Shown one piece after another: positions 1,194 through 62,590 of a stretch of 64,000 bases of DNA (position 1 is its first letter; the number at the start of each line of letters is the position of its first letter). Under the pieces are notes generated by a model. That model was not told the DNA's origin. It was given only the letters and a program-made list of their open reading frames with translations, and searched no databases. The translations under genes and the position numbers were made by a program. Source of the stretch: Bacteroidaceae bacterium (GTDB lineage Bacteria > Bacteroidota > Bacteroidia > Bacteroidales > Bacteroidaceae); assembly GCA_017416805.1 (NCBI GenBank), contig JAFQBB010000036.1, positions 1-64,000 of the forward strand. Direction: 5' to 3'.

Positions 1194-1450
1194 TGTGCTA
1201 ATGTGCTAATATGCCAATGACCATGCGGCACGATAGCATTAAGCATTTACACATTGGCACATTAACACATTAGCACATTAGTATATTGTCACATTAGCAT
1301 ATTAGCATATTGTCACATTAGCATATTTGCACATTGGCACATTAGCATATTGGCACATTAGCATATTAGCACATTAACCACATTAGCATATTAGCACATT
1401 GGCATATTAACCACATTGTCACATTAGTATATTAACCACATTAGCATATT
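1194..1450. repeat. Word-repeat element with CCATGCGGCAC core (acattagcat class)
   Basis: The whole 257-base gap between ubiE and menA is made of variations of a 10-12 base word, CACATTAGCATATT and close relatives (CACATTGGCACATTA, CACATTAACCACATT), repeated about 18 times from 1245 to 1450. A left block at 1194-1217 holds the same word in reverse complement. Between the two lies CCATGCGGCAC at 1221-1231, shared with other elements of this window. The left block can pair with several right-hand words, so a transcript could fold into alternative hairpins. The last repeat ends exactly at the menA start codon. Confidence 0.85.
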
Positions 1451-2326
1451 ATGATCAAAAACTGGATAGAGGCCATGCGCCTTCGTACACTCCCCGTCAG
1501 CATGGCTGGCGTACTCGCCGGATGCGGTTGTGCCCTGTGGCAGGACAGATTCTCCATCGTGCCGGCACTACTTTGCCTGCTGTTTGCCCTATCGGCACAG
1601 ATAGCGTCTAACTTCGGCAACGAATATTACGACTACAAGAATGGTATGGACCGCAAGGGGCGCGAGGGGTTCCGACGCGGAGTGACTGAGGGAGACATCA
1701 CCCCGCAGGCCATGAAGCGTGCCACCTTTGCCATGCTGGGCATAGCGGCTGTCATCGGCTGTTCGTTGCTGCTGTATGGCGGCCTGTGGCTCATCCCTGT
1801 CGGTTGTGCCATCCTGTTGTTTGCCCTTGCTTACAGCGCTGGTCCCTACCCACTTTCTCATCATGGATTGGGCGATGTCACAGTAGTTGTCTTCTTCGGC
1901 ATAGTCCCCGTCACCTTCACTTGCTACTTGCAGACGGGGGGATGGGAGGAATTGCCCGTACTGCTCACCACTTCTGTCGCCATCGGACTCTTGGCAGCCA
2001 ACGTCCTCGTTGTGAACAATTATCGCGACATGGAAGATGATGAGGCTGTGGGGAAACGAACGACGGTTGTTCTCTTTGGGCGTAAGGTCATGAGCTATGT
2101 TTATCTGCTTTCGGGCATCGCAGCTATGACCATCATGACAGCCTTGTGGACACAACTGCCTCTATGGGCGCTCATCATTCCCCTGATTTACTTGGCGCTA
2201 CACATCGCCACCTGGCGCAAACTTATCCATAGTCGGGGTGCCGCGCTCAACCCCTTGCTTGGGCGGACGGCTATCAACCTGCTCGTCTTCACTCTTCTAT
2301 TGCTGGTGGTGTTGGCGGTAGTGTGA
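1451..2326 (+). CDS. menA: 1,4-dihydroxy-2-naphthoate polyprenyltransferase MenA
   Basis: 291 residues, UbiA superfamily, with about eight to nine hydrophobic segments. The first Asp-rich motif reads NEYYDYKNGMD (residues 57-67) and the second NNYRDMEDDEAVGKRTT, which distinguish MenA from other UbiA members. It joins the polyprenyl tail to 1,4-dihydroxy-2-naphthoate in the inner membrane; UbiE upstream methylates the later product. The ATG at 1451 immediately follows a repeat array, so the usual upstream ribosome-binding region is repeat sequence. The gene ends 6 bases before the converging DUF554 gene. Confidence 0.93.
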   Translation: MIKNWIEAMRLRTLPVSMAGVLAGCGCALWQDRFSIVPALLCLLFALSAQIASNFGNEYYDYKNGMDRKGREGFRRGVTEGDITPQAMKRATFAMLGIAAVIGCSLLLYGGLWLIPVGCAILLFALAYSAGPYPLSHHGLGDVTVVVFFGIVPVTFTCYLQTGGWEELPVLLTTSVAIGLLAANVLVVNNYRDMEDDEAVGKRTTVVLFGRKVMSYVYLLSGIAAMTIMTALWTQLPLWALIIPLIYLALHIATWRKLIHSRGAALNPLLGRTAINLLVFTLLLLVVLAVV

Positions 2327-2332
2327 TTTTTA

Positions 2333-3022
2333 TTATACCAGCCCCTTCACAAGAAACCACAGCACGGGGACAAGCAGGGCGGGGAGCATGTTCAGCGTCT
2401 TGCAATCTTTCAGTTTGAGGAGGGAAAGACCCGAGGCGACAATCATCAGTCCGCCGACGATGAGCAACTCTGCCATGAGTGCTTCGCTGATGGCGGTGCT
2501 CGATAGCTTTGCCACCAAGTAGAACATGCCCTGCCAACAGAAGAGTACGGGTGCGGCCAGTATCATCCAAATGCCGTAGGTACTGGCAAAGACGGTGGAG
2601 GTTACCAAATCGAGCGTGGCATTGGTATAGAGGAAGGTGTTGTCGCCCTTCAGCGCACTTATCACAGGCCCGAGCATGGCCAAGGGACCGATGCAGTAAA
2701 GCAGGATGGCGGTAGAGAGTCCGTCGGCCAAGTTGGTGTTCTTATTGCCCTTTGAACGCTTGTTAACCAAAGCGGTAAACCGTCCGTCGAGGTCCAGCAC
2801 CGTGCCTACCACACTTCCAATGGCAATCGATACGATGAAGAGCACAGGGTATTCGCTTTTACCGAAGTTGCTTATCACCGCATTGAGGCCGATGCCCAAG
2901 CAGGCCAGTCCCAATCCGGTGTATAGCGTGTCCTTATACTTTTCCTTAATCCCTCTGTTCATCACAGCACCCACGATGCTGCCCACGATTATCGTGCAAG
3001 TGTTTACGATTGTTCCTATCAT
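2333..3022 (-). CDS. DUF554 family membrane protein
   Basis: 229 residues with six to seven hydrophobic segments. The N-terminus MIGTIVNTCTIIVGSIVG and the GLGLACLGIGLNA region match the DUF554 (YqgA/YdfK) family of small inner-membrane proteins. No biochemical function is established for the family and none can be inferred here. The gene converges with menA, 6 bases apart, with no separate terminator. Its upstream region (3023-3257) is filled by another repeat element, starting with an atttacatttac tract that touches the start codon. Confidence 0.85.
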   Translation of the reverse strand: MIGTIVNTCTIIVGSIVGAVMNRGIKEKYKDTLYTGLGLACLGIGLNAVISNFGKSEYPVLFIVSIAIGSVVGTVLDLDGRFTALVNKRSKGNKNTNLADGLSTAILLYCIGPLAMLGPVISALKGDNTFLYTNATLDLVTSTVFASTYGIWMILAAPVLFCWQGMFYLVAKLSSTAISEALMAELLIVGGLMIVASGLSLLKLKDCKTLNMLPALLVPVLWFLVKGLV

Positions 3023-3210
3023 ATTTACATTTACATTTACAATTTACAAATTTACTACCAGCTTGTCGGCTGACTGGTTTATCTTTTTTAGAACGCAGAG
3101 ACGCAGAGGCACAGAGTTTCTTTGAGTGACTAGCGACTAGTGGATTGGATTGCGGCACTCAGAACTCTTTTCTTTTTTTAAAAAACTCTGCGACTCTGTG
3201 TCTCTGCGTT
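3022..3210. repeat. Word-repeat element with inverted acgcagag arms and TGCGGCAC centre
   Basis: Two imperfect inverted arms of 28 bases, 3092-3119 and 3183-3210, are built of the words ACGCAGAGACGCAGAGGC and ACTCTGCGACTCTGTGTC. TGCGGCAC (3151-3158), eight bases of the core seen in other elements, lies exactly at the centre of symmetry. Between the arms is a small agtgactagcgactag block. A separate atttacatttac tract runs from 3022 to about 3055. The element separates two minus-strand genes and could form a long hairpin when transcribed. Confidence 0.8.
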
Positions 3211-3257
3211 TTATTTTCAAAGTTCAATGCATGCAGCACTATCGTGTGCAACTCCTT

Positions 3258-4046
3258 TTACTCCTTGAACACTTGTCGGATACAGCCGTAGGAGTCGAAT
3301 GTCTTGCGGGCAGAGAGCCAAAGGGTTGTCATGAGCGAGAGGATGGAGGCGGCGACGGTGATGACGATAATCATCATCTGGTATTTGATGGCCACGTTTG
3401 GCGATGAGCCTCCCAATATCTGTCCTATCATGGTGCCGGGCAGGGCGACGAGTCCCATCACCGCCATGTTGGCAATGGCAGGGCTGAAGGCTTTGATGAT
3501 GGCTTCGCGCACGAAGGGGGCTGTGGCCTCGTGGCGGGTGGCTCCGTTGCCCAACAGGTAGTAGTAGAGTTGCTGTTCGCGCATCAGGTTGGAGTAGAAG
3601 GTGTTCAGGGCAATAACATTGCTTGAAAGCATGTTGCCCATGAGGATGCCGAAGATGGGTATCATGTATTGTGCGCCGAAGATGTTGTCAAGTCTCAATA
3701 CCACTCCAAGGAAATAGAGCCCTACAAGTATGGCCGAAGCCAAGAAGCCGATGGCGAGGGGAATCATGAGGATGCGGCGTTTGAGACGGGTGCGCGAAAG
3801 GGCCGTTTCGGTAGCCACGAATACCATGATAAAGACCCAAAGGAAATTGATCCACGGGTTGTCCCACAGGAAGAGGTATTTGAGGTAGATGCCTATGAGG
3901 AAGAGTTGGACAATCATGCGTATGGCTCCTACAATGGTGGGCTTTACCAATCCTGTCTTGAAGTGGTGAAAGAAGTATAGAGGTACGAGCAGGAGTAACA
4001 TGCCGATGCCCAATCCCCAGTAGCTGATGTCAATCGTTGTGCCCAA
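3258..4046 (-). CDS. fetB: FetB-type ABC transporter permease (UPF0014 family)
   Basis: 262 residues with seven or so hydrophobic segments. Motifs characteristic of FetB/UPF0014 are visible: IRMIVQLFLIGIYL, GNMLSSNVIALN, LLGNGATRHEA and GLVALPGTMIGQILGG. FetAB is known in E. coli as an exporter linked to iron resistance; the substrate here is inferred only. The ATP-binding partner is the upstream gene on the same strand, 38 bases away. The frame can only start at a TTG (4046): an in-frame stop lies at 4056-4058 and the upstream bases are an atgaattatgaattatg repeat, so the original start may have been disturbed by that repeat. Confidence 0.88.
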   Translation of the reverse strand: MGTTIDISYWGLGIGMLLLLVPLYFFHHFKTGLVKPTIVGAIRMIVQLFLIGIYLKYLFLWDNPWINFLWVFIMVFVATETALSRTRLKRRILMIPLAIGFLASAILVGLYFLGVVLRLDNIFGAQYMIPIFGILMGNMLSSNVIALNTFYSNLMREQQLYYYLLGNGATRHEATAPFVREAIIKAFSPAIANMAVMGLVALPGTMIGQILGGSSPNVAIKYQMMIIVITVAASILSLMTTLWLSARKTFDSYGCIRQVFKE

Positions 4047-4048
4047 GG

Positions 4049-4090
4049 TTATGAATTATGAATTATGATTTATGAGTGCTGTCGCTAGTC
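4049..4090. repeat. Short word repeat between fetA and fetB
   Basis: Three tandem variations of the word TTATGAATTATGA at 4049-4077 are followed by agtgctgtcgctagtcac. The second part belongs to the agtgac/actag word class seen at 59.5, 61.1 and 62.5 kb, and it supplies the last codons and the stop codon of fetA (minus strand, ending at 4085). The first part touches the unusual TTG start of fetB. Confidence 0.65.
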
Positions 4091-4711
4091 ACTGATCTTG
4101 TATTGCCTTCCGCATCCTTCTATGAAACGTGGGTCATGGCTTACGGCCAGTATGGTTTTCCCCTTTGCGGCCAGCTGTTGTACGAATTGCAAGGCCTTTT
4201 CAGTTGATGCATGGTCGAGTGCCGAGGTAGGTTCGTCGATGATGACGAGTGGCTTTTCCTGCATGGCGGTGATGGCCAATAGGATGCGTTGGCGTTGTCC
4301 TCCCGATATTTCGTGCAAGCGCTTGTCAAGCAATCCTTTTTCCAAGCCAAGTGTGTTGAAGTGGTCAAGCAGGGTCGTTTCAGAAAAGGATACTCCCCTA
4401 TTCACCTTCAGGCCGAATGGAAGATGCACCATTTCTCTTACCCTTTCGCAGGGCAGTGACAAGCCTTGTGGCATCCATGCCACTTGGTGTCGGATGTGGT
4501 AAGCTGTACGGGGCGATAGGGTGATGCCGTTTACGGAGATTGTCCCCGTATGAGGGGGGACGAATCCCATAATGGCTTTCAGAAGGGTGGTTTTTCCACA
4601 TCCTGACGGGCCGGTGAGGCACACCAGTTCGCCTTTCTTCACATGGAGGTCAATGTGGCTGAACAGCTCTGTTTGTCCGAATTGTATTCCTAAATTCTCA
4701 ATCCGTAGCAT
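4085..4711 (-). CDS. fetA: FetA-type ABC transporter ATP-binding protein
   Basis: 208 residues. Walker A GPSGCGKT at residues 34-41, signature ISGGQRQR, Walker B PLVIIDEPTSAL and the switch histidine in AVSHDPRF are all intact. The next gene on the strand is the FetB-type permease, so the two form a half-transporter pair. The C-terminal residues KISD and the TAG stop are encoded by an actagtcact-type repeat, suggesting that a repeat has replaced the original end. The family is implicated in iron homeostasis; the substrate is not proven. A TACCTTCG box at 4733-4740 is a possible -7 element. Confidence 0.88.
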   Translation of the reverse strand: MLRIENLGIQFGQTELFSHIDLHVKKGELVCLTGPSGCGKTTLLKAIMGFVPPHTGTISVNGITLSPRTAYHIRHQVAWMPQGLSLPCERVREMVHLPFGLKVNRGVSFSETTLLDHFNTLGLEKGLLDKRLHEISGGQRQRILLAITAMQEKPLVIIDEPTSALDHASTEKALQFVQQLAAKGKTILAVSHDPRFIEGCGRQYKISD

Positions 4712-4732
4712 GATTACTTCTGATAAGTCGTG

Positions 4733-4740
4733 CGAAGGTA
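4733..4740 (-). promoter_or_regulatory. Possible -7 box of fetAB
   Basis: On the minus strand the sequence reads TACCTTCG, one base away from the Bacteroidetes TAnnTTTG consensus, 22 bases before the fetA start codon. No clear TTTG lies about 20 bases further upstream, so this is a weak call. Confidence 0.4.
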
Positions 4741-4760
4741 CGAATATTTATCCGTTTTTC

Positions 4761-4796
4761 TCCCCTGTCTGAAAAGATTTTTTCTCAGACAGGGGA
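4761..4796. terminator. Strong stem-loop downstream of gdx
   Basis: A 12-base perfect stem (TCCCCTGTCTGA, 4761-4772, paired with 4785-4796) closes a 12-base loop. It lies between the gdx stop and the fetA promoter. On the minus strand no T-run follows it, so it may be a processing or stability structure rather than a classical terminator. Confidence 0.5.
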
Positions 4797-4819
4797 GGAA
4801 AAATTCTCAGGTACTCTCT

Positions 4820-5140
4820 CTACACCATCTTCAATCCGATGATGGAGGCTATCAGTGTGGTGATGAAGAAGAGGCGCCAGAAGGTGGCCGGCTCGTGGAA
4901 GAAGATGATGCCTACGAGTACTGTGCCTACAGCACCTATTCCTGTCCATACAGGATATGCCGTCCCTATGGGTAGTGTCTGTGTAGCCTTGGCCAGCAAC
5001 CACATGCTTACGGCGGTGAATGCCAGAAATCCTCCCATCCACTCCCAATATGCCAGGCCGACGGCATCCTTGGCCTTACCGAGGCAGAAGGTGAAACCTA
5101 CCTCGCACAAGCCTGCAATGACGAGTATTATCCAATTCAT
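4820..5140 (-). CDS. Small multidrug resistance family, Gdx/SugE-type guanidinium exporter
   Basis: 106 residues with four transmembrane helices. The essential Glu13 of SMR proteins is present (MNWIILVIAGLCE). The motif LPIGTAYPVWTGIGAVG is the Gdx/SugE version of the family rather than the EmrE version, so export of guanidinium-type cations is likely. The ATG at 5140 is preferred over one 19 codons upstream, because that one lies inside the -7 box of a good promoter. I looked for a guanidine riboswitch in the short leader and saw none. A stem-loop follows the gene. Confidence 0.85.
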   Translation of the reverse strand: MNWIILVIAGLCEVGFTFCLGKAKDAVGLAYWEWMGGFLAFTAVSMWLLAKATQTLPIGTAYPVWTGIGAVGTVLVGIIFFHEPATFWRLFFITTLIASIIGLKMV

Positions 5141-5194
5141 AGGGCAAAAAAGTTTTCTGTTTGTGACGTATTTTTGTATAAATGAAATTGCCTG

Positions 5195-5802: not shown

Positions 5803-5916
5803 TTGGAGAGTAGGCCGAGTCCCTCTTGGAGAGTAGGCCTACTCATCATGCATGACCTGGGCATCTCATCATGCATGACCTGGGCATCTCATCATGCATG
5901 ACCTAGGCATCTCATC
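5803..5916. repeat. Tandem repeat of 23-base period
   Basis: Five consecutive units keep an exact 23-base period, although the unit changes along the array. Units 1 and 2 (from 5803 and 5826) start TTGGAGAGTAGGCC. Units 3 to 5 (from 5849, 5872 and 5895) read TGCATGACCTGGGCATCTC and differ by one or two bases. The second unit is a hybrid that joins the two forms. The array lies between the convergent DoxX and wHTH genes. Confidence 0.85.
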
Positions 5917-6313: not shown

Positions 6314-6862
6314 ATGATTCTGAACGAACGAGAAGAACGGCATGAGCACCTCCTGTGGGTAGCCCGCCAGATGATGACCGCCGCACGTACGGCACCGAAA
6401 GGGAAAGGCATCGATGTGATTGAGACCATTGCAGTGACGGGAGCCGACATCCAGTTGCTGAGCGACACCATGCGGCAGATGTACGAAGAGAATGGCTTCA
6501 AATTTTTCCTGCGCGATGCGGACAACATCCTTAGTGCAGAGGTCATTATATTAATAGGTACGCGCGAGCAATCGCAAGGTCTCAATTGCGGACATTGCGG
6601 ATTCGAACTCTGTGCCGACCGTTTGCCCGATGTGCCCTGTGCGCTCAATACGGTGGATGTGGGCATTGCCATCGGTTCGGCTTGTGCCATGGCTGCCGAT
6701 TTGAGGGTAGATACACGCGTCATGTTCTCGGCCGGACAAGCTGCCCAGCGCCTTGGATGGCCCGAAGGATGCCACACGGTGTTTGCCATCCCTGTAAGTG
6801 CATCGTCAAAGAATCCTTTCTTCGACCGCAAGCCGAAGGAGGAGAAGAAGAATGAAGAGTAA
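6314..6862 (+). CDS. DUF2148 ferredoxin-domain protein
   Basis: 182 residues from the ATG at 6314 (an upstream in-frame TTG is less likely). The cysteine cluster LNCGHCGFELC and the following PCALNTVDVGIAIGSAC block are the DUF2148 hallmark, which suggests a bound iron-sulfur cluster. The conserved C-terminal part VFAIPVSASSKNPFFDR is also present. Function is unknown; members occur in anaerobes. The stop codon overlaps or nearly touches the start of agmatine deiminase (ATG at 6852 or 6870), so the two are translationally coupled. Confidence 0.83.
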   Translation: MILNEREERHEHLLWVARQMMTAARTAPKGKGIDVIETIAVTGADIQLLSDTMRQMYEENGFKFFLRDADNILSAEVIILIGTREQSQGLNCGHCGFELCADRLPDVPCALNTVDVGIAIGSACAMAADLRVDTRVMFSAGQAAQRLGWPEGCHTVFAIPVSASSKNPFFDRKPKEEKKNEE

Positions 6863-6869
6863 AATAAGA

Positions 6870-7988
6870 ATGAATCAGCCTACAGAAAATCTTCAAAGCC
6901 GATACTCCCTCCCCGCTGAATGGGAGTCGCAGAGCATGGTGCAACTGACGTGGCCGCACGAGGAAACCGACTGGGCAGAGATGCTGGACGAGGTGTATGA
7001 GTGCTTCATTCACATCGCCCGCGAGGTGGCCAAGCGCGAGCGTCTGTTGGTAGTCACCCCCCACCCTGCCCGCGTGGAGGAGCAGCTTCGCCAAGCAGGT
7101 GTACAGATGGAGCACGTCACCCTATTTCAGTGTCCGACGAATGACACGTGGGCACGCGACCATGGGTTCATTACAGTATTACAAGTTGACAAGACACAAG
7201 TTGACGAGTTGACAAGGAATAGTGCCGCATGGGCCTCGTCAACTCGTCAACTCGTCAACTTGTCAACTAAAATCCACCTCGACTTCTGCTTCAATGGATG
7301 GGGCATGAAGTTTGCCTCCAACCTGGACAATCAGATAAACTCCCGCTTGCACAAGGCCGGAGTGGTGGAAGGCGAGTATGTGGATTGCCTCGACTTTGTG
7401 TTGGAGGGTGGTTCCATCGAGAGTGACGGTGCGGGCACTCTGCTCACCACCAGCCATTGCCTGCTTGCGCCTAACCGCAACGCACGCTATACCACCAAAG
7501 AGGCTTTGGAGCAGAAGTTCTGCGAATGCTTCGGCACTCGTCAGGTCCTTTGGCTCGACCATGGCTACTTGGCAGGTGACGACACGGACAGTCACGTGGA
7601 CACCCTTGCCCGCCTTTGTCCGGACGACACCATTGCATACGTGCAATGCACCGAAAAGACCGATGAGCACTACACCGAACTTCACCTGATGGAGGAGCAA
7701 CTGAAGACCTTCCGCACCCTTGACGGACGTCCCTACCGCCTTGTGCCCCTGCCCATGACGGATGCCGTGGTGGAAGATGGCGAACGCCTGCCGGCCACCT
7801 ATGCCAACTTCCTCATCATGAACGGAGCAGTGCTCTACCCTACTTACAACCAACCGGAAAAAGACACTTTGGCTGGCAAGCAATTGCAATCCATCTTTCC
7901 CGATCACGAAGTGGTGGGAATCGATTGCCGCGCACTCATCCGCCAACATGGGTCGTTGCATTGTGTGACGATGCAGTATCCAATATGA
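6870..7988 (+). CDS. aguA: Agmatine deiminase with an in-frame repeat insertion
   Basis: 372 residues (or 378 from an ATG at 6852). Hallmarks of the agmatine deiminase/PAD family are present: NDTWARDHGF (about residues 91-100), NGWGMKFASNLDNQI, LEGGSIESDG and HGYLAGDDTDSHVD, with the catalytic cysteine C365 in HGSLHCVTMQ. It converts agmatine to N-carbamoylputrescine, which the next gene hydrolyses. Residues about 105-134 are unlike family members: this stretch is encoded by an inverted word-repeat element (7183-7272) with the CCATGCGGCAC core, inserted in frame between two conserved blocks. Activity may be kept if the insert forms a surface loop. Confidence 0.9.
   Translation: MNQPTENLQSRYSLPAEWESQSMVQLTWPHEETDWAEMLDEVYECFIHIAREVAKRERLLVVTPHPARVEEQLRQAGVQMEHVTLFQCPTNDTWARDHGFITVLQVDKTQVDELTRNSAAWASSTRQLVNLSTKIHLDFCFNGWGMKFASNLDNQINSRLHKAGVVEGEYVDCLDFVLEGGSIESDGAGTLLTTSHCLLAPNRNARYTTKEALEQKFCECFGTRQVLWLDHGYLAGDDTDSHVDTLARLCPDDTIAYVQCTEKTDEHYTELHLMEEQLKTFRTLDGRPYRLVPLPMTDAVVEDGERLPATYANFLIMNGAVLYPTYNQPEKDTLAGKQLQSIFPDHEVVGIDCRALIRQHGSLHCVTMQYPI
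7183..7272. repeat. Word-repeat element inside aguA, with CCATGCGGCAC core
   Basis: The left arm consists of the word AGTTGACAAG/AGTTGACGAG (7186-7217) and the right arm of the reverse words CTCGTCAACTCGTCAAC (7235-7268). GTGCCGCATGG (7222-7232), the core in reverse orientation, lies between them. Length and phase keep the aguA frame open. This is the clearest case of the family inside a gene. Confidence 0.85.
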
Positions 7989-7989
7989 T

Positions 7990-8138
7990 TGGGAGTTAGA
8001 GGAGTTAAAGGGAGTTATCACTTCGCTTTGCTCCGTTAGAAGTTAAAAGCCGATAGTAAAGCTATCATGCAAGCACAACATTCGGCTTTAACTCCTTTAA
8101 CTCCTAACGAAGTGCTAACTCCTTTAACCCCCTATAAA
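7990..8138. repeat. Word-repeat element, gagttaaag class
   Basis: Left arm (about 7990-8052) consists of GGAGTTAGAGGAGTTAAAG words, a cacttcgctttgctccgt insert and agttaaaagcc. Right arm (about 8083-8138) is the complement: GGCTTTAACTCCTTTAACTCC, TAACGAAGTG and more aactcc words. The centre gatagtaaagctatc forms its own small hairpin. It fills the gap between aguA and aguB, and its right arm is an open extension of the aguB frame. Confidence 0.85.
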
Positions 8139-8150
8139 TATAAACCGCAT

Positions 8151-9038
8151 ATGAACAAAACATTGAAAGTCGGTCTCATCCAGCAGGCCAATACCGCAGA
8201 TTTGCGCTACAATCTGAAGAAACTGAGTGAAAATATTGCCGCCGTGGCCTCTCACGGTGCCGAACTGGTGGTGCTTCAGGAATTGCACAACAGTCTCTAT
8301 TTTTGTCAGACGGAGGACACCCGTCTCTTCGATTTGGCCGAGCCTATCCCTGGCCCTTCCACCGGATTCTATAGCGAACTGGCGGCCATGCATCGCGTGG
8401 TGCTGGTGACATCGCTCTTTGAAAAACGTGCACCAGGCCTCTATCATAACACCGCTGTCGTGTTCGACAAGGATGGCTCCATCGCCGGCAAGTATCGCAA
8501 GATGCACATCCCCGACGATCCTGCCTACTACGAGAAGTTCTACTTCACCCCCGGCGACATCGGTTTTGAACCGATACAGACTTCCGTGGGAAAACTGGGC
8601 GTACAGGTGTGTTGGGATCAGTGGTATCCCGAGGGGGCACGCCTGATGGCTCTGAAGGGAGCTGAGATACTCATCTACCCAACCGCTATCGGATGGGAAA
8701 GCACCGACACCGACGAAGAGAAAGCACGCCAACTCGGAGCTTGGGTCACCGTGCAACGGGGGCATGCCGTAGCCAACGGATTGCCCGTCGTGGCAGTAAA
8801 CCGTGTGGGGCATGAACCTGACCCATCCGGTCAGACGAACGGCATCCAGTTTTGGGGAAACAGCTTCGTGGCTGGCCCTCAAGGCGAACTCTTGGCCGTG
8901 GCCGACAACTATAAGGAGCAAAACATGGTAGTCGAAGTCGATATGACCCGCTCGGAAAACGTGCGCCGCTGGTGGCCCTTCTTGCGTGACCGTCGTATTG
9001 ATGAATTCGATGCGCTCACAAAGCGGTTCGTGGATTAA
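8151..9038 (+). CDS. aguB: N-carbamoylputrescine amidase
   Basis: 295 residues from the ATG at 8151. The frame is open further upstream, but only through repeat sequence, so the longer start is rejected. Nitrilase-superfamily catalytic triad: E44 (VVLQELHNS), K117 (YRKMHIPDD) and C154 (VQVCWDQWYPE). The CWDQWYPEGAR block is typical of N-carbamoylputrescine amidase. It makes putrescine, ammonia and carbon dioxide from the product of agmatine deiminase just upstream. A putrescine/spermidine importer is encoded 32 kb away. Confidence 0.95.
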   Translation: MNKTLKVGLIQQANTADLRYNLKKLSENIAAVASHGAELVVLQELHNSLYFCQTEDTRLFDLAEPIPGPSTGFYSELAAMHRVVLVTSLFEKRAPGLYHNTAVVFDKDGSIAGKYRKMHIPDDPAYYEKFYFTPGDIGFEPIQTSVGKLGVQVCWDQWYPEGARLMALKGAEILIYPTAIGWESTDTDEEKARQLGAWVTVQRGHAVANGLPVVAVNRVGHEPDPSGQTNGIQFWGNSFVAGPQGELLAVADNYKEQNMVVEVDMTRSENVRRWWPFLRDRRIDEFDALTKRFVD

Positions 9039-9040: not shown

Positions 9041-9145
9041 GAAGAACGAAGAATGAAGAACGAAGAATGAAGAATAATAATATACAGACTATTGGATTCT
9101 TCACTCTTCACTCAGTATTGGATTCTTCACTCTTCGTTCTTCATT
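9041..9145. repeat. Word-repeat element, gaagaatgaaga class
   Basis: Left arm of GAAGAACGAAGAATGAAGAA words (9041-9072), right arm of TTCTTCACTCTTCACTC words (9097-9145). The centre contains TACAGACTATTGGATTC. On the complementary strand this centre (GAATCCAATAGTCTGTA) is nearly identical to the centre of the element at 27824-27889. It separates aguB from the DUF4251 gene and can form a long hairpin. Confidence 0.8.
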
Positions 9146-9212
9146 TATTTGAACTTTCCCACCCTTTCTGTTGTTTTGGGCTATAGATTGATAACCTATA
9201 AAACAGCAGATT

Positions 9213-15354: not shown

Positions 15355-15656
15355 TTCTTTAGTTTAGGCGCGGATTACACAGATTAACATGGAAAAAGCA
15401 GACAATTTGTATTAATGCTCCGTGAAATCCGTGTAATCCGTGCCTAATACAAAGGTCCTTCTACAATTTAGTTGAAAAACTGTTTGTCTTCAGCATTATA
15501 GGTTCATTGGCAAAGTATCTTAAGATACTTGCCCATTTATCTTAACTTCTCGGGCCATTTATCTTAAGATACTTATCTCCATCCCTAATTTCAACTAAAT
15601 AGCAGAAGAGCCATTGTAAATGCAATAAATTGTACCTTGTAAATTCTTCCTTATAA
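15355..15656. repeat. Three consecutive repeat elements between uxaA and nhaC
   Basis: Part 1 (15364-15447) is an inverted repeat of gcggatta words, with arms nearly identical to those at 10547-10613. Part 2 (15508-15580) contains the perfect palindrome AAGTATCTTAAGATACTT at 15513-15530, then gcccatttatcttaac and ccatttatcttaagatactt variants. Part 3 (from 15613, running past 15656 into the nhaC start) is of the atttacaa class. No gene is seen in this 302-base stretch. Confidence 0.8.
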
Positions 15657-25675: not shown

Positions 25676-26596
25676 ATGAACAAGAAGATAGTAGTCATAG
25701 GAAGTTGCAACACCGATATGGTGGTCAACATGGAGCGTCTGCCCTTGCCGGGCGAAACGCTTATCGGAGGGAAGTTCTTCATGAACCCCGGTGGGAAGGG
25801 AGCCAATCAGGCCGTGGCGGCCGCCCGACTGGGTGGAAACGTCACCTTTGTGGCCAAGGTGGGAAATGATGCCTTCGGCCAACGGGCCATCGAGCAGTAT
25901 CAGGCTGAGGGGATTGAGACGCGCTACGTGCTAGTGGATGGTGAAAATCCTTCGGGCGTGGCCCTTATCATGGTGGATGCGCAGGGCGAAAACAGTATTG
26001 CCGTAGCCTCGGGAGCCAATGCCCAACTGCTTCCGCCTGACATTGATCGTGCGGCAGAGGCTATCGCCAAAGCGGGTATTCTGCTGATGCAACTGGAGAC
26101 TCCGATGCGCACGGTTGACTATGCCGCCCGCATAGCTAAGGAGAAGGGAGCGAAGGTCATTCTCAATCCGGCACCGGCACACACCTTGCCCGATTCGCTC
26201 TTGCGAAACCTCTATATGCTGATTGCCAACGAGACGGAAGCGGAATTCATCTCAGGCACACAGATTACAGACATGGACAGTGTGGCACGTGCGGCAGACA
26301 TCATCAGCCACAAGGGGGTGGAAAATGTTGTTATTACCCTCGGTGCGAAAGGAGCCTTTGTCAAGGAGAAGGGAAGTTATCACCAGATTCCAGGTCACAA
26401 GGTGAAGGCTGTGGATGCCACGGCAGCGGGCGACACCTTCTGCGGTGCCCTCTGTGTGGCCCTCTCCGAAGAAAAGAGCATCACCGAAGCTGTGGAGTTT
26501 GCCAACCGATGTGCTGCCATCACCGTGACACGCATGGGAGCGCAATCGTCGGTACCGCATAGGAGGGAGGTGGATATTTTTATGAAGGAGTTATAG
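25676..26596 (+). CDS. rbsK: Ribokinase
   Basis: 306 residues from the ATG at 25676 (another ATG two codons upstream is possible). PfkB family with ribokinase-specific N-terminus IGSCNTDMVVNMERLPLPGE, substrate loop NPGGKGANQAVAAARLGG and C-terminal catalytic motif DATAAGDTFCGAL. It makes ribose 5-phosphate from ribose and ATP. The downstream GRP-type sugar transporter supports a ribose uptake pair. The 262 bases before it hold the dnaX-MG2 terminator and no clear promoter. Confidence 0.92.
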   Translation: MNKKIVVIGSCNTDMVVNMERLPLPGETLIGGKFFMNPGGKGANQAVAAARLGGNVTFVAKVGNDAFGQRAIEQYQAEGIETRYVLVDGENPSGVALIMVDAQGENSIAVASGANAQLLPPDIDRAAEAIAKAGILLMQLETPMRTVDYAARIAKEKGAKVILNPAPAHTLPDSLLRNLYMLIANETEAEFISGTQITDMDSVARAADIISHKGVENVVITLGAKGAFVKEKGSYHQIPGHKVKAVDATAAGDTFCGALCVALSEEKSITEAVEFANRCAAITVTRMGAQSSVPHRREVDIFMKEL

Positions 26597-26757
26597 GAGT
26601 TAAAGGAATTATCACTTCGCTTCGCTCGTTAGGAGTTAAAGCTAATAGTTTTTGCTTGAATGATTGCAAAACACTTGGTTAGCAGGCAAAGCCTGCGATA
26701 ACTTCTAAGCCTGAAAGGCTGATAACTTCTTTAACTCCTATAACTCCCCCCCTCCCA
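26597..26757. repeat. Word-repeat element, gagttaaag class with GCAGGCAAAGCCTGC hairpin
   Basis: Left block: GGAGTTATAGGAGTTAAAGG, then cacttcgcttcgctcgt and taggagttaaagc. Centre: ttggttagcaggcaaagcctgcgataac (26678-26705), containing the hairpin GCAGGCAAAGCCTGC. Right block: a second hairpin AAGCCTGAAAGGCT, then aacttctttaactcctataactcc. It has the same modules in the same order as 34638-34796. It lies between rbsK and the GRP transporter. Confidence 0.85.
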
Positions 26758-26802
26758 ATAACTCCTTTCCAAAAACAGTATTAATCCTAAATTTGAAGAC
26801 CT

Positions 26803-27823: not shown

Positions 27824-27889
27824 AAAAAATGAAGAGTGAAGAATCCGATAGTCTGTACATTATGATTCTTCACTCTTCATTCTTTTTTT
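27824..27889. repeat. Word-repeat element, gaagagtgaagaa class, between convergent genes
   Basis: AAAAATGAAGAGTGAAGAATC on the left pairs with GATTCTTCACTCTTCATTC on the right, with centre CGATAGTCTGTACATTAT. The centre plus inner arms match the complement of the element at 9041-9145 over about 39 bases with a few differences. The right arm is followed by a T-run, so it could terminate the GRP transcript; its complement could do the same for GH115. Confidence 0.85.
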
Positions 27890-34626: not shown

Positions 34627-34637
34627 ATCAGTATTCA

Positions 34638-34796
34638 TTAAGGAGATAAAGGAGTTAAAGGAGTTATCGGCCCGATGGGCCTAGGAGTTAGAGCCAATAG
34701 TTTTGCTATACATTTGGCTAGCAGGCAAAGCCTGCGATAACTCCTTTAACTCCTAACGAGCAAAGCGAAGTGATAACTCCTTTAACTCCCTAAAAG
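34638..34796. repeat. Word-repeat element, gagttaaag class with GCAGGCAAAGCCTGC hairpin
   Basis: Left: GGAGATAAAGGAGTTAAAGG, gagttatc, the small hairpin GGCCCGATGGGCC, taggagttagagcc. Centre: aatagttttgct, then ttggctagcaggcaaagcctgcgataac (34715-34742) with the shared hairpin. Right: ctcctttaactcctaacg, agcaaagcgaagtg, ataactcctttaactcc. It sits between the two GH43 genes and touches the second one's leader. Confidence 0.87.
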
Positions 34797-43337: not shown

Positions 43338-43344
43338 GTTTTAT

Positions 43345-43530
43345 TCTTTTTAGGAGTTAGAGGATTTAAAGGGTGTTATTGGCCTTTCAGGCCTAGGGGT
43401 TAAAGCCGAATGTTTGGCAAGTGAAGAGTCTTGTGCCGCATGGCTTACTTGTAGCTCGTAGCTCATCACTCGTAGCTTTACTATTGGCTAGCAGGCAAAG
43501 CCTGCGATAACTCCTTTAACTCCTTTTAAT
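43345..43530. repeat. Composite word-repeat element with both core types
   Basis: Left: aggagttagaggatttaaaggg, hairpin GGCCTTTCAGGCC, taggggttaaagcc. Nested in the middle is a second block: gaagagtctt, the core GTGCCGCATGG (43433-43443, reverse orientation), and acttgtagctcgtagctcatc. Right: ttggctagcaggcaaagcctgcgataac (43483-43510) and ctcctttaactcctttt. The CCATGCGGCAC block seems inserted into a gagttaaag-class element. The right end reaches the potA stop codon. Confidence 0.85.
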
Positions 43531-44908
43531 TCATTATTACTCTAATATCCTCAGGGGCAATCGTGATGCCCACACGGTCACCATCGTCCCATACATCGTT
43601 GGTGTTGACAAATACGTCTTCGTCCCAATCGGAGCGGACGGTGAGGTGATAATGGTTACCTTTATAAAGGATAAAGTTCACGTCGCCGGTCAGCATACCG
43701 TCTTCCTCGTTATCCTGAAGGATGACACGGTCGAAATCAACTTCAACCTTCACTGTGGCACCCGGTTCAATGTCTTTCACCGGCAGACACTCAAACTCCT
43801 GACCGAGGAACTCTACATGGTTTTCATCGATCAAATGCCCTTCGAAGGTGTTGCAAATGCGTTCTTTCTTCATGACATGGATATCGAAAGGTTTTACCAG
43901 TAATCCTACTTCACGTCCGGCTTCAAAGCAATTGTAGTCTTGTACCATCAGCTCGTAACCGTCTTCGGTTTGCACCAGCATTTCGTAGTGTACACCTTTG
44001 AAAATGCAACTTGTCACTGTACCCTTCAACTGGGCTGCATCTGACGGGTCAAAAATGTAAATATCTTCGGGACGGACAACGACATCAATGGGGGTGTTCT
44101 CACCGAATCCTTCATCAACGCACTCGAATTCGTGTCCGGCAAAGCTGACGAGTTTGTCTTTCAGCATGGTGCCATTCAGGATGTTGCTCTCGCCAATGAA
44201 GTCGGCCACAAACGAGTTGATGGGTTCATTATAGATGTCTATCGGTGTACCTATCTGCTGGATGCGTCCTTCGCTCATCACTACGATGGTGTCACTCAGA
44301 GTCAGGGCCTCTTCCTGGTCGTGAGTCACATACACGAAGGTTACGCCCAATGACTTATGCAACTCCTTGAGTTCCATCTGCATGTCTTTTCTCATCTTCA
44401 GGTCAAGGGCAGCGAGGGGTTCGTCCAACAGGAGCACTTCGGGATTGTTGACAATAGCGCGGGCAATGGCGACACGCTGCTGCTGGCCACCGGAAAGGGA
44501 ATCCACGTCGCGATACTCATAGTCGGTCATTCCTACCATCTTCAAAGCTCCCTTTACCTTTTTCTCGATGATGGACGAAGGAAGTTTTTTCAGTTTGAGA
44601 CCGAAAGCAATGTTGTCAAACACATTCAGGTGGGGAAAAAGTGCGTACTTCTGAAATACGGTATTTACCGGACGCAGATGGGGAGGCGTTTTCGTTATCT
44701 CCTGTCCGCTGATGCGTATTTCGCCCTCTGATGCTGTCTGAAATCCGGCTATCAGCCGCAGAAGTGTTGTTTTACCACATCCCGAAGGACCAAGAATGGT
44801 GACAAACTCACCTTTTCTTACTTTCAAGTTGATGTTGTCCAGTGCCACTTTTTCGCCGAAGTACTTCGATACGTTCTGGACTTCAATGATGTAATTTGCC
44901 TGTTGCAT
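43526..44908 (-). CDS. potA: Polyamine ABC transporter ATPase PotA with enlarged C-terminus
   Basis: 460 residues, about 90 longer than typical PotA. Walker A GPSGCGKT (40-47), signature LSGGQQQR (138-145), Walker B VLLLDEP (158-164), switch His in VTHDQEEA. Two regulatory segments follow. Around 280-345 is a TOBE_2-type domain with [10 protein letters not shown]. Around 350-460 is a second, similar one ending [14 protein letters not shown]; the VRPEDI/APEDI echo suggests a duplication. The PotBCD genes follow on the same strand. Confidence 0.92.
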
Positions 44909-47002: not shown

Positions 47003-47094
47003 TAGTGTTATTTCTTTACAAATTATGTCTTCTCCAAGATCTCTTCCGCGAGTGACGGCAGAAGGCTTTTAAGGGTAACAGTGACCTGCATTAA

Positions 47095-47158
47095 AGGGTA
47101 TCTGATACTCATAAGCAAGGGTATCAGATACCCATGGCCAAGAGTATCAGATACCCTT
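47095..47158. repeat. Three palindromic gggtatcagataccc units
   Basis: AGGGTATCTGATACTC (47095-47110), GGGTATCAGATACCC (47119-47133, a perfect palindrome) and GAGTATCAGATACCCTT (47142-47158) lie 23-24 bases apart. The outer two are near inverted copies, so nested hairpins are possible. The unit lies between the convergent sodB and recX genes and may serve as a bidirectional terminator. No T-run is present. Confidence 0.75.
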
Positions 47159-47235
47159 AAAAATGCCATTTTCTTCCGTTTTTGTGTACAAACGTCAAGA
47201 AAAAGAGGGGATGCAGAATGAGTTAAGAAAAATAT

Positions 47236-59456: not shown

Positions 59457-59478
59457 TACTCGTGGCTCATTGGATAGA

Positions 59479-59558
59479 ATTCTACTTTGTAAATGATAAA
59501 TTGTACATTCAGCAACTCGTAGCTATTCACTAGTCGCTAGTCACTCGTCACTCGCCAC
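59479..59558. repeat. Word-repeat element, agtcactcg and atttacaa classes
   Basis: First a short tactttgtaaatgataaattgtac tract (59479-59507), then actcgtagctattcactagtcgctagtcactcgtcactcgcc (59515-59557). The second part is of the same word class as 61128 and 62517, and contains the stop codon of the ABC ATPase. Confidence 0.75.
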
Positions 59559-60440
59559 AATCCTAAACCTCATCTCCTGTTGGTCGAAAGTGAAATCCTT
59601 TCCTGTGAAGAATTGTCCGAGTGCTCCATTTTCGGCCAGCTCTTTGGGCGACCCGATGGTGAGTGGTTTGATGGTTGATGACTCTATGGGTGGTTGGGGT
59701 GTCTCCCCTTGAGTTGGCAAAGAAAATCCCCCTTCACCCTTCACCTGTGACCCTTCACCCTTTGCCCTATACCTTTTCATCAGCCATAGGGTATCGGCCG
59801 TTTGTAGGGCCAGCTCCACATCGTGTGTCGAGAGGAAGATTGTCTTTCCCGTCTCATGCGCCAGTTGGCGGAGCAAGAGCATGGTGTCCACCTTGCTCGG
59901 ATAGTCGAGGAAGGCCGTCGGTTCGTCCAGGTATATCACAGGGGTTTCTTGAGCCAGCGCCTTGGCTATCATCACCTTCTGTCTTTCTCCATCGCTCAGA
60001 GTGTCCACCAGACGGGTGGAAAAGTCGCTCATCCCCACCATTTCCAGTGCCTTGTTGACGGCCTCGCGATCGGTTGTTGACAGGCTTCCCCAGAAGTTGG
60101 TGTACGGGCTTCGTCCCATCCCCACCAGTTCGCCCACCATCATGTGGTGCAACTCCGGCTTTTCCGTCAGCACCACCCCCACGAGCCGTGCCCGTTCGTT
60201 GGCCGAGTACTCCTCAATCCGTTTTCCTTTCAGCAACACCTCCCCCTCCAATGGTGGCAGGAAGGCCGATAGTGTGCGTAGCAACGTGCTTTTACCGGCA
60301 CCGTTAGCCCCCAGCAGGCAGGTCAGTTGCCCTTCGTACAGGCTTGCATTGATCTCCTGTGCGATGTATTTCTTTCCCCGTCCCTTCTCGTTGTATCCGA
60401 TGGAGAGGTCCTTCAACTTTATGGTTTCGTTCATAGCCAT
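59541..60440 (-). CDS. Siderophore/cobalamin-type ABC transporter ATPase with in-frame repeat insertion
   Basis: 299 residues. Walker A GANGAGKS (44-51), signature LSDGERQK (148-155), Walker B VIYLDEPTAFLDYPS and switch His in LSTHDVELAL. Similar to FecE/BtuD-type ATPases for iron-siderophore or cobalamin uptake; the permease and binding protein are not in the window. Residues about 226-261 (YRAKGEGSQVKGEGG and beyond) are not family sequence: they come from a gggtgaagggtcacaggtgaa-type repeat inserted before the conserved C-terminal SPKELAENGALGQFF. The end (VASDE, stop) is encoded by another repeat. Confidence 0.88.
   Translation of the reverse strand: MAMNETIKLKDLSIGYNEKGRGKKYIAQEINASLYEGQLTCLLGANGAGKSTLLRTLSAFLPPLEGEVLLKGKRIEEYSANERARLVGVVLTEKPELHHMMVGELVGMGRSPYTNFWGSLSTTDREAVNKALEMVGMSDFSTRLVDTLSDGERQKVMIAKALAQETPVIYLDEPTAFLDYPSKVDTMLLLRQLAHETGKTIFLSTHDVELALQTADTLWLMKRYRAKGEGSQVKGEGGFSLPTQGETPQPPIESSTIKPLTIGSPKELAENGALGQFFTGKDFTFDQQEMRFRIVASDE
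59658..59765. repeat. Repeat insertion inside the ABC ATPase gene
   Basis: The words CCCTTCACCCTTCACC and GACCCTTCACCCTTTGCCC (59729-59765) are variations of one 8-10 base word; the neighbouring 59658-59728 encodes a Pro/Gln/Ser-rich segment without family similarity. The frame is kept. The exact left border is uncertain. Confidence 0.6.
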
Positions 60441-60468
60441 TTTTCGTCAGTAGTTTGCTTCACGTTAG

Positions 60469-60499
60469 CAAAGATACGTCAAGTTACGTTCAGTACAAA
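60469..60499 (-). promoter_or_regulatory. Promoter of the ABC ATPase gene
   Basis: Minus strand -7 TATCTTTG (60469-60476) and -33 TTTG (60496-60499), 19 bases apart, about 28 bases before the ATG. Confidence 0.8.
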
Positions 60500-60591
60500 G
60501 AAAAAAGTGGAAATATATTTCGACTTGTTTTTTATTTGTTGCATCTTTAAAAAAACGAGTGTACAAAGGCATCATTTTCGTAGAAAAGCAG

Positions 60592-60599
60592 TACTTTTG
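60592..60599 (+). promoter_or_regulatory. -7 box of the DUF3237 gene
   Basis: TACTTTTG, exact TAnnTTTG, 21 bases before the ATG at 60621. No TTTG at the proper distance upstream. Confidence 0.5.
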
Positions 60600-60620
60600 G
60601 GCCAAAGTTATTATTAGTGT

Positions 60621-61124
60621 ATGAAAAGCTTATTGACCGCAATGCTCCTTTGCCTCATTGTCAGTATGGGCAAGGCGCAACACGAAGCTCCCCAACTGGA
60701 GTTTGTCGTCGAGTTGAAAGTGAAGTGCGAGGGTGCCTATCAGGTGGGCCAGACTTCGCACGGCAACCGTTTCATTATCCCCATTGTGGGCGGCACGTTC
60801 GAAGGCCCGCGCCTGAAAGGCACCATCCTGCCTGGTGGAGCCGATTACCAGTTGCAATCGCCTGCCCTTGGCCGCACCGAGCTGGAGGCCATCTATAGCA
60901 TCCGCACCGACGATGGTGTGAACATCCACGTGCGCAACCGTGGCCTTATCTGTACAGGCAAGGATGCCGACGGCAAGCCCCAATTCTATTTCCGCACCGC
61001 CCCTCAGTTCGAGGCCCCCATGGATAGCAAATATGCCTGGCTCAACAATGCCATCTACGTCTGCCAACCCAGCATGGGTGGCGAGGAAGGGCTCATCTGC
61101 CTGAAAATATGGATGGTGAGGTAG
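60621..61124 (+). CDS. DUF3237 domain protein, exported
   Basis: 167 residues with a signal peptide (about 1-19, cut after GKAQ). The rest is one DUF3237 domain: LEFVVELKVKCEGAYQVG, IIPIVGGTFEGPRLKGTILP, GADYQL and the FRTAPQFEAP/YAWLNNAIYV ends. The family is a small beta barrel of unknown function. It is followed by a 290-base repeat cluster and the alpha/beta hydrolase gene in the same direction. Confidence 0.88.
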   Translation: MKSLLTAMLLCLIVSMGKAQHEAPQLEFVVELKVKCEGAYQVGQTSHGNRFIIPIVGGTFEGPRLKGTILPGGADYQLQSPALGRTELEAIYSIRTDDGVNIHVRNRGLICTGKDADGKPQFYFRTAPQFEAPMDSKYAWLNNAIYVCQPSMGGEEGLICLKIWMVR

Positions 61125-61127
61125 CGA

Positions 61128-61417
61128 CACTAGTGACTAGCTACTAGCTACTAGCGGATAGTGACTAGTGTCCATGCGGCGCTAATCCTTTGAGTTTTGA
61201 GTGCTGAGTGCTGAGTTCTGAGTGCTGAGTGACCATGCGGCACTAATTTTTCAGACGCAGATGACGCAGATGACGCGGATTAAAGTTGGCCATGCGGCAC
61301 TTACAACTCAAAACTCATACCCCCTAGTCGTTAGTCACTCTAAATCACTCATCACTCATAATTCATCACTCATAACTCATAATTCATAATTCAAAACTCA
61401 TAAATCATAAATCCCTA
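61128..61417. repeat. Repeat cluster with three CCATGCGGCAC cores
   Basis: Four blocks made of different words are separated by three copies of the core. Block 1 is actagtgactagctactagc (61131-61169); core at 61172-61182 (one mismatch). Block 2 is gagtgctgagttctgagtgc (61190-61230); core at 61233-61243. Block 3 is cagacgcagatgacgcagatgacgcgg (61252-61279); core at 61290-61300. Block 4 (61303-61417) is built of the words actcataattcatcactc and aactcataattcataa, ending at the next gene's start. Blocks 1-3 are each word classes found elsewhere in this window. Confidence 0.9.
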
Positions 61418-62326
61418 ATGAAACTGAATCGTATTTTTACCACCGCACTCATCATGGCAGGCCTGATGTGCCCCCATGTGTTGTCAGCCCAGAGTGAAGA
61501 AAATGTAGTCGTAGTAGAAAAGGGTGGCCGTGGCCCCCACAAGGCCATCATGAAGGAAGAGGCCAGCCTCGATGCACACACCATCTTTGTGCCCCTCGAC
61601 CTCACGCCGTTCAGTGCCAAGAATCCCCTACCCGTTCTCGTATGGGGCAATGGTGCCTGCTACAATAGCCCCTTCGAGCACTACAAGTTCCTCAACGAGA
61701 TAGCCTCCCACGGATACCTCGTCGTGGCCACCGGCTATATCCCCCGCAATGGTGCCGAGCCCTACCAGGGTCCCCGCTCCACCACCCAGCAACAGGTCGA
61801 ATCCATGGATTGGGTCATAGCCCAGAATGCCGACCCCTCGTCGCCCTACTACCTGAAGATTGATGTCCGTGCCATCTGCGTGGCCGGCATGTCGTGTGGC
61901 GGACTCCAGACACTCTACAATTGCGCCGATCCCCGTATCAAGACCCTCATGGTGTGCAATAGTGGTCTTTTCACCAACCCCTCTACCGCCATGCCCGGCA
62001 TGCCCATGCCTCCAAAGGAGAAGTTGGGCGAGATACATTGCCCCGTCATGTACATGCTCGGTGGCGAGAGCGACATAGCTTATGCCAACGGCAAGGACGA
62101 CTTCACCCGCATCACCCACGTCCCCGCCTGCTTTGCCAACCTTCCCGTAGGTCATGGTGGCACCTATGCCCAGCCCCACGGAGGCGATTACTCCATCGTA
62201 GCCCTCGCCTGGCTCGACTGGCAACTCAAGGGCGACAAGCGTGCCGCCAAGATGTTCAAGGGCAAGAAACCCCTCCTCGCCTCCCGTCCCGGATGGACAT
62301 TGCAGAAGAATGATTTGATGAAGTAG
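61418..62326 (+). CDS. Exported alpha/beta hydrolase
   Basis: 302 residues with a signal peptide (about 1-25, cut after VLSAQ). Nucleophile elbow VAGMSCGGLQT with Ser, oxyanion region VWGNGACYN, acid in GGESDIAY and His in VGHGGTY, so the triad is complete. Similar to dienelactone-hydrolase/cutinase-like (PETase-type) families; the substrate is not predictable. The start ATG directly follows the repeat cluster. The stop codon is joined to ctactagctactag words and a terminator follows. Confidence 0.85.
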   Translation: MKLNRIFTTALIMAGLMCPHVLSAQSEENVVVVEKGGRGPHKAIMKEEASLDAHTIFVPLDLTPFSAKNPLPVLVWGNGACYNSPFEHYKFLNEIASHGYLVVATGYIPRNGAEPYQGPRSTTQQQVESMDWVIAQNADPSSPYYLKIDVRAICVAGMSCGGLQTLYNCADPRIKTLMVCNSGLFTNPSTAMPGMPMPPKEKLGEIHCPVMYMLGGESDIAYANGKDDFTRITHVPACFANLPVGHGGTYAQPHGGDYSIVALAWLDWQLKGDKRAAKMFKGKKPLLASRPGWTLQKNDLMK

Positions 62327-62353
62327 CTACTAGCTACTAGTGATGAGATTTAT

Positions 62354-62381
62354 AAAGGGCATCCTTTTCGGGGTGCCCTTT
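62354..62381 (+). terminator. Terminator of the alpha/beta hydrolase gene
   Basis: AAAGGGCA (62354-62361) pairs with TGCCCTTT (62374-62381), loop of 12 bases with further pairing, then TCTTATT. Confidence 0.8.
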
Positions 62382-62516
62382 CTTATTGATAAGGAAAAAT
62401 CAGGTTGTTATTCTTTTGGGGTGAACTATCAAGAAATCCTTGTCAGTTCGATTATCTGGCTTTGTGGGAAGTACTTTTGTCCTTTTGGGTAGTGATTTTC
62501 GCTTTTTTGGGGGTAG

Positions 62517-62590
62517 TTCGCCACTATTCACTCGTTACTCGTAGCTCGTCACTCGTAGCTAGTAGCTAGTCACTAGTCACTCGTAGCTCC
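62517..62590. repeat. Word-repeat element, actcgtagct/agtcact class
   Basis: Words ACTATTCACTCGTTACTCG, TAGCTCGTCACTCGTAGC, tagtagctagtcactagtcactcgtagctcc run from 62522 to 62590. The right end encodes the last codons and the stop codon of the Nudix gene. A related short piece (gtagctactagctactag) is at 62324-62341. Confidence 0.8.

Follow-up and report, generated by a model that had tools for sequence, protein, structure and literature searches.

Word-repeat hairpins with a recurring 11-bp core dispersed among genomes of a Bacteroidaceae genus

Introduction

Word-like tandem arrays in the gaps between bacterial genes are usually attributed to slippage. More elaborate short repeats include the BOX elements of Streptococcus pneumoniae, modular hairpins in which the number of inner units varies. 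Here we describe hairpin elements in a stretch of 64,000 nucleotides from a Bacteroidaceae bacterium (contig JAFQBB010000036.1, positions 1 to 64,000; from here on the window), in which arrays of short words form inverted arms around a fixed turn, the 11-mer CCATGCGGCAC (from here on the core). Several described systems invite comparison. According to the sections of the report cited here, BrickBuilt of Porphyromonas gingivalis, a miniature inverted-repeat transposable element (MITE), has a fixed 23-nt unit, IS5-like terminal repeats and some target-site duplications (PMC4596501). Repetitive extragenic palindromic (REP) elements bear GTAG or CGTC at one end, and in the part of the source drawn on, a Y1 transposase goes with the GTAG type (PMC3733652). 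Direct repeats of the heptamer TAACTGA occur in Beggiatoaceae, Cyanobacteria and five Bacteroidetes, and the authors state, in the portion of the article used here, that no transfer mechanism is evident (PMC4679880).

In the elements described here a single fixed tip, always in the same polarity, is common to unrelated words, whole elements are gained, lost and swapped between relatives, and one of the swaps can be read within a gene. The explanation that we favour, with a probability of about 0.55, is a dispersed MITE- or BOX-like hairpin family, in which the loop is recognised or was part of the founder, and the arms are rewritten by slippage. The listings obtained from the open-licence literature in PubMed Central held no description of this hairpin family, and among the matches listed for the core 11-mer no paper is about repeats by its title and abstract.

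A recurring core between inverted word arrays

The genome under study (G000, a 3.16-Mb draft, 91% complete) was compared with 14 other genomes of the same genus (G001-G014, making 15 in total). An earlier note on the window, made from the sequence alone, had located five exact cores, and all five are where it put them, at 1221 (+), 7222 (-), 43433 (-), 61233 (+) and 61290 (+), together with a one-mismatch form, CCATGCGGCGC, at 61172. When one mismatch is allowed there are eight matches in the window, whereas 100 dinucleotide shuffles averaged 1.37 and never exceeded 4; the remaining two one-mismatch matches, at 6468 and 62694, lie inside listed open reading frames (ORFs). In the whole of G000 the core is found at 27 sites (13 forward, 14 reverse), against 2 for the same 11-mer read backwards and a chance expectation of about 1.2, computed from the base composition of the window. 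By reading of the contexts, 25 of the 27 sites lie in or adjoin word-repeat elements, which bears out the view of a fixed site inside otherwise free sequence. The 11-mer is not evenly common in genes, as the other two (sites 9 and 19) are in ordinary coding sequence, with the open frame confirmed at site 9 and site 19 coding by reading only. A word array is found to the left of the core at 24 of the 27 sites, among them site 25, where the array is 23 bases off, and site 14 has no word array but a right flank common to the array-bearing sites 20 and 24. Tandem Repeats Finder returned 37 rows for the window, many with a period of 7-9, and the core-bearing arrays have these periods and no 23-nt tandem unit such as that of BrickBuilt. 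The word-repeat hairpin family with its recurring core is real.

A unit consists of a word arm, the fixed turn with the core, and an inverted word arm, and the core joins several unrelated word families. The arms are word arrays in inverted orientation; both their length and their register vary, and they have no common end. Among sites with at least two words to the left of the core, forward words stand there at 20 sites for AATGTGC, 10 for TTGACAAG, 15 for ACTAGTG/ACGAG, 4 for GAAGAGT, 3 for GACGCGGAT and 2 for TTCAAAG, and reverse words at none in any of the six families (one site may count in several families). Word strand and core polarity are locked together, and CCATGCGGCAC is the fixed loop shared by several word families.

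To avoid circularity, hairpins were also chosen by the word AATRTGC and not by the core, which gave about 19 hairpins, or 36 strand-loops. The core was present within one mismatch in six of them (6 of the 36 strand-loops), two exact and four one base off, and neither the backwards core nor 300 shuffles of the loops gave any match; 20 of the word-chosen loci had been taken with places of a known exact core excluded, and the share is if anything underestimated. Graded forms of the core are seen as well (CCGTGCGGCAC, CCCTGCGGCAC and CCATTCGGCAT). The core is thus a real loop motif, but sister hairpins often have it in degraded form or not at all, and the idea that it is strictly kept has to be given up. 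In seven ortholog groups every member (both, where there are two) has the exact core, but this was not used as proof of selection, because presence of the core was itself the reason for fetching most of the second members.

Distribution among genomes

In a search of 150 genomes, six of the 15 genomes of the genus are rich in the core (G012 with 41 sites, G000 with 27, G014 and G002 with 17 each, G011 with 12 and G005 with 11), and the other 144 have 0 to 7 sites each. Four of these 144 were inspected (L027-L030), and in them the core has no adjoining word array. The word AATRTGC is confined to four of the 15 genus genomes (41, 88, 100 and 52 matches), with none for the backwards control. The number of gap bases in arrays of period 6-10 was taken from a small sample, one 20-kb stretch per genome except for three from the window and two from G008. 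It was 543, 113 and 90 in the window stretches, 443 in G012, 258 in G005, 251 in G002, 87 in G014, 37 in G006, 13 in G011, and 0 to 68 in G001, G003, G007, G008 and G010. In this small sample G011 is low in array density, yet it is core-rich.

Gain, loss and replacement between relatives

Comparison with relatives shows elements of the window that have little or no counterpart elsewhere. In G006 only 3 bp, between flanks that are 92-93% identical, stand in place of the element at 1194-1448. Those at 7984-8156 and 9044-9164 correspond to only 25 bp and 11 bp in G005, with flanks 89-96% identical (95-96% for 7984-8156), the one at 34628-34790 to nothing in G014 (no spacer, flanks 72-81%) and 25 bp in G011, and the one at 43342-43534 to 33 bp in G005. 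In the gap at 26563-26801, four kinds of hairpin hold the same place in different species. The family is dispersed in multiple copies with presence and absence among relatives, and each of four filled and empty comparisons may reflect either a gain or a loss. From one species to another an element may be altered, absent or exchanged for a different one, so these are not ordinary conserved gene leaders, a possibility that the earlier note had kept in view.

The clearest case of replacement lies within a gene. The gene at 6852-7988 (+) encodes a PAD_porph protein, which is agmatine-deiminase-like (Pfam E 8.6e-118), and a TTGACGAG word hairpin at 7178-7270 (-), with the exact core at 7222-7232 (-), lies in frame in it. 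The elements had been described as non-coding; this is true of most, which lie in gaps, but not of this one. Compared with the structure 1zbr, the element accounts for about 25 extra residues, placed at a turn that joins two aligned blocks. At this junction seven relatives (G001, G003, G004 and G007-G010) have a short turn, G000 and G012 have the 7178-7270 element, and G002, G005 and G014 have another hairpin, 114-117 bp long and likewise in frame (G011 gave no match, and G006 and G013 were outside the comparison). Between G000 and G012, 92 of the 93 bases of the element are identical, and the neighbouring 90-bp blocks are 74-78% identical; between G000 and G005 the flanks are 93-96% identical and the element differs. 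The next best copies of the element are 87-88% identical (the best of 40 scored out of 99 candidates in G012, among the matches listed). Because both kinds of element share the junction residues, the simplest history would be a single old insertion with later replacement of its content, and short-tract recombination between species would be the obvious agent of the swap.

In the first 12,000 bases of the window, compared with G005, G006, G002, G012 and G014, identity to any one relative swings from about 75% to 96% gene by gene, which suggests, from the sequences compared, frequent recombination between species of the genus.

Where both orthologs are filled, the differences between AATGTGC elements amount to roughly whole words, and in several the loops are unrelated. 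Slippage is therefore clearly part of the process, and the earlier phrase 'not simple slippage' understated it. An alternative explanation would go further and have the arrays grow in situ by slippage from short seeds, rich in A or in G, close to the ends of genes, with inversion by template switching at the fork and conversion sharing words, so that nothing would be mobile and the core would hitch-hike. The whole-word differences fit such growth, as do the small arrays of related words that G002 and G014 have in the 'empty' gap at 7984-8156, and a unit of about 83 bp (CACGGATT words plus core) that stands three times in tandem in G002 (L096, G002:C140:38516-38693) and once in G000. It does not account well for the same 11-mer occurring in one polarity in several word families, nor for full elements of 93-255 bp that appear between flanks 92-96% identical with no intermediate seen, and the arm order is mismatched whereas fresh template switching predicts a match. 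Growth in situ appears rather unlikely.

Folding and orientation of the core sites

In folds computed with RNA energies for 76 core sites (83 minus 7 dropped as coding), the median number of pairs enclosing the core is 23, compared with 12 when the flanks are mononucleotide-shuffled. At least 20 enclosing pairs are found at 48 of the 76 sites against 26% of the shuffles, and the mean minimum free energy is -35.9 against -26.0. A simple open loop holds the core in only one of 83 folds, and for this reason 'apical' is to be read as 'between arms' and not as a proven bare loop.

Such folds, stronger than with shuffled flanks, would also be expected if the elements served operons as processing or stability hairpins and an RNA-binding protein or a ribonuclease bound the core loop. 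In line with this, 41 of the 57 core sites outside ORFs lie between codirectional genes, with 9 in divergent and 7 in convergent gaps (counted with a crude gene caller, which missed both coding sites, 9 and 19). The orientation of the core is mixed, with 26 on the same strand as transcription and 15 on the opposite strand in the codirectional gaps by the same crude caller, and this mixture, together with the divergent and convergent gaps and with the same operons lacking any element in close relatives, speaks against a role in RNA, which we regard as distinctly improbable. A strand-specific RNA motif was rejected on the mixed orientation. Intrinsic terminators prefer transcript ends, a preference that the core sites do not show, as 7 of the 57 are in convergent gaps and 41 in codirectional ones. 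Among known RNA families, the window gave only four tRNA matches at gathering score.

Candidate drivers and vehicles

The search for a partner gene was limited to two families, Y1_Tnp (PF01797) and RVT_1 (PF00078), and the association with a recombinase or polymerase gene that the earlier note had raised was found for neither the Y1 transposase nor the reverse transcriptase. Short dispersed gap hairpins restricted to a clade would be expected if palindromes were excised and inserted by a Y1 transposase, as in REP elements and their associated transposases (RAYTs). The domain has matches in G003, G005, G007, G012 and G014, of which G003 and G007 are core-poor, and its absence from three core-rich genomes led to the rejection of a RAYT as driver. 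This explanation was already weakened, and although a gene may have been missed in G000, which is 91% complete, we consider it very improbable indeed. PF00078 is present in G000; a reverse transcriptase as driver was rejected, as the family is missing in three core-rich genomes and abundant in the core-poor G008, with 13 matches. Most of these 13, on contig C1 of G008, have equal score, as if one element had multiplied. Among viral stretches AATRTGCYAATRTGCYAAT is found in 38 and ACRCAGAG in 19, few of them with several matches. The backwards control of ACRCAGAG (4 stretches) is not independent, as the array reversed is a rotation of itself. Phage spread was rejected since no vehicle was seen in the viral matches, these loci not having been read individually.

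Weighing the favoured explanation

According to the explanation that we favour, a dispersed hairpin family, copies would spread as hairpins whose loop may be recognised by a putative factor, or would at least be the founder sequence of the family. Rough complementarity of the arms would suffice, and because no more than this would be needed, they could be rewritten by slippage during replication and by exchange among arrays that use the same words. A copy landing beside an older core would give the pattern W1-core-W2-core-W3, with W standing for a word. Effects on the host would probably be small, since the elements fill gaps and, in PAD_porph, sit on a turn tolerating insertion. It is possible that one mechanism is behind all the elements, as had been proposed.

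In favour of this explanation are the excess of cores in G000, their concentration in six genomes of the genus, the locked polarity of words and core, the recurrence of the core in hairpins chosen by word, the number of pairs that enclose it, the empty sites, the different elements that share the junctions at 7178-7270 and 26563-26801, and a second word family with a fixed loop. Several observations weigh against it. At least six enclosing pairs are found at 73 of 83 core sites, and also at 62 of 83 with shuffled flanks and at 54-70 of 83 when positions are shifted, so by this measure the core is barely special. Most of the AATGTGC hairpins chosen by word carry other loops (at least three differences, or unrelated), one arm is missing at many core sites, and of three homologous elements fetched irrespective of the core one has it exactly (L085) and two are without it (L140 and L148). 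When the two arms are set in a fixed register their word order does not agree (p 0.40 for 23 of 46; p 0.51 and 0.32 at other positions), and covarying arms were rejected on this result. Neither target-site duplications nor fixed ends were seen at the four filled and empty comparisons read by eye. An autonomous partner is also lacking in these drafts (76-91% complete), in that Y1_Tnp was not found in the core-rich G000, G002 and G011, and RVT_1 was not found in the core-rich G002, G011 and G014.

Individual elements of the window

The AATGTGCY word hairpin at 1194-1448 (+), with the exact core at 1221-1231, fills the space that separates a ubiE-type methyltransferase gene (498-1193) from a UbiA-type prenyltransferase gene (1451-2326). 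A ACGCAGAG word hairpin at 3093-3208 (+) has its left arm at 3093-3116 and its right arm at 3186-3208; an 8-base variant of the core had been claimed at 3148, and a partial core is indeed there, placed as TTGCGGCAC at 3150-3158. The AGGAGTTAA word hairpin at 7984-8156 (+) has an inner hairpin, GCCGATAGTAAAGC...ACATTCGGC, with a core-like TCATGCAAGCAC in the inner loop. That at 34628-34790 (+) has an inner AGCCAA...TTTGGCT hairpin without the core. At 43342-43534 (-), where an ABC-ATPase/TOBE gene and a permease gene form the flanks, the element is nested, with AGGAGTTAA outer arms and an inner ACGAG-word hairpin holding the exact core at 43433-43443 (-). An inner hairpin of the AGGAGTTAA family, beginning GCCRATAGYAAAGCT, is common to G000, G004 and G012 despite differing outer words (AGGAGTTAA or GGAGATAAA). 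In the AGGAGTTAA arrays (7984-8156, 26563-26801, 34628-34790 and 43342-43534), tiny palindromes resembling GCAGGCAAAGCCTGC, GGCCTGAAAGGCC and GCGAAGCG stand between words.

The array at 61129-61413 (+) is also nested, with W1 (ACTAGTG), W2 (TGAGTGC) and W3 (GACGCAGAT) around cores. Its order is W1, the one-mismatch core at 61172, W2, the core at 61233, W3, the core at 61290, W2', W1' and more words, and W3 has no complementary arm. Copies are seated here inside the turn of older copies. The stretch core-W3-core is found again at L010, and at L021 with a variant first core.

Other tandem repeats in the window are a 23-bp repeat at 5842-5916 (three and a third copies, 98% alike), and repeats of 22-23 bp at 47094-47160 and 15516-15574 with a palindromic inner part (GGGTATCAGATACCC and TATCTTAAGATA).

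A second fixed loop and a wider vocabulary

Since the GAAGARY words have a fixed loop of their own, AATCATAATGTACAGACTATYGGATT, the combination of free arms and a fixed loop is not unique to CCATGCGGCAC. This loop is found in 10 rows of the fetched loci, two of them within one window element, across several species, and inverted in G012. In the window, the GAAGAAT/GAAGAGT word hairpin at 9044-9164 (+) has it as AATAATATACAGACTATTGGATT at 9076-9098, and a second copy is at 27842-27867 (-). With the two loops CCATGCGGCAC and AATCATAATGTACAGACTATTGGATT as fixed non-word parts, the arrays are more than pure slippage-made repeats.

The word pattern ACRCAGAGACRCAGAGRCRCAGAG (ACRCAGAG), from the hairpin at 3093-3208, is found in at least 118 stretches of the GTDB collection, against about 0.06 expected by chance if bases are equal, and spans at least 12 phyla among the 80 matches listed, the phylum of some of these names being assigned from recall. 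Within its own phylum the pattern is rare (4 of 395 genomes), and several of its contexts (L225-L304) have a complementary arm. A bolder proposal would be a hairpin replicator recognised by its loop and indifferent to its stem, in which hairpins are copied by the loop, the stem is rewritten from a small vocabulary of words, one part of which (ACRCAGAG) is common to at least 12 phyla, and cassettes are exchanged at fixed junctions, even within a protein gene; we hold this to be quite improbable. The scattered repeats of 7-9 nt in distant phyla, a long-standing nuisance, become testable, as the spreading unit may be the loop and not the word.

Comparison with known systems

Like MITEs and BrickBuilt as characterised in the passages cited, the elements are short, non-coding, multi-copy and mostly intergenic, with strain-dependent presence (PMC4596501, PMC10969869). 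BrickBuilt also has an internal tandem array of varying copy number, and MITEs nest in one another, according to the same passages (PMC4596501, PMC10969869). Unlike in BrickBuilt, the words here are 7-9 nt long and of many kinds, they form inverted arms around a fixed loop, and no fixed ends or duplications were seen. With REP elements and RAYTs they share short palindromes dispersed in gaps, as given in the source excerpt (PMC3733652), but in the present elements it is the loop that stays fixed and the stem that is free, and the Y1 transposase was not found in G000. The TAACTGA repeats are likewise arrays of a short word that occupy gaps close to genes, and they too are found here and there in distant phyla; as far as the cited portion goes they are sets of one word and nearly all direct (PMC4679880), whereas here there are many words, inverted, around a fixed loop. 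Slippage-made simple repeats are alike in that the number of units varies between relatives, and unlike in that fixed loops are present here. BOX elements, compared by description and not by sequence, differ in their fixed outer modules, of which none were found here. DNA uptake sequences are present in about a thousand or more copies, a number that the 27 core copies do not reach. Rickettsia palindromic elements (RPEs) are, in the part of the review used, palindromic repeats in frame within ordinary genes, as is the element in PAD_porph (PMC10969869). RPEs are mostly in genes according to that part (PMC10969869), while here an element brings just one of the 27 cores into a host gene, and the other elements that were read lie in gaps; unlike in RPEs, two unrelated elements hold the same PAD_porph junction in different species. 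On the features tested, membership of the REP/RAYT group or of the classical MITEs fails, and the family works like MITE, BOX or RPE elements.

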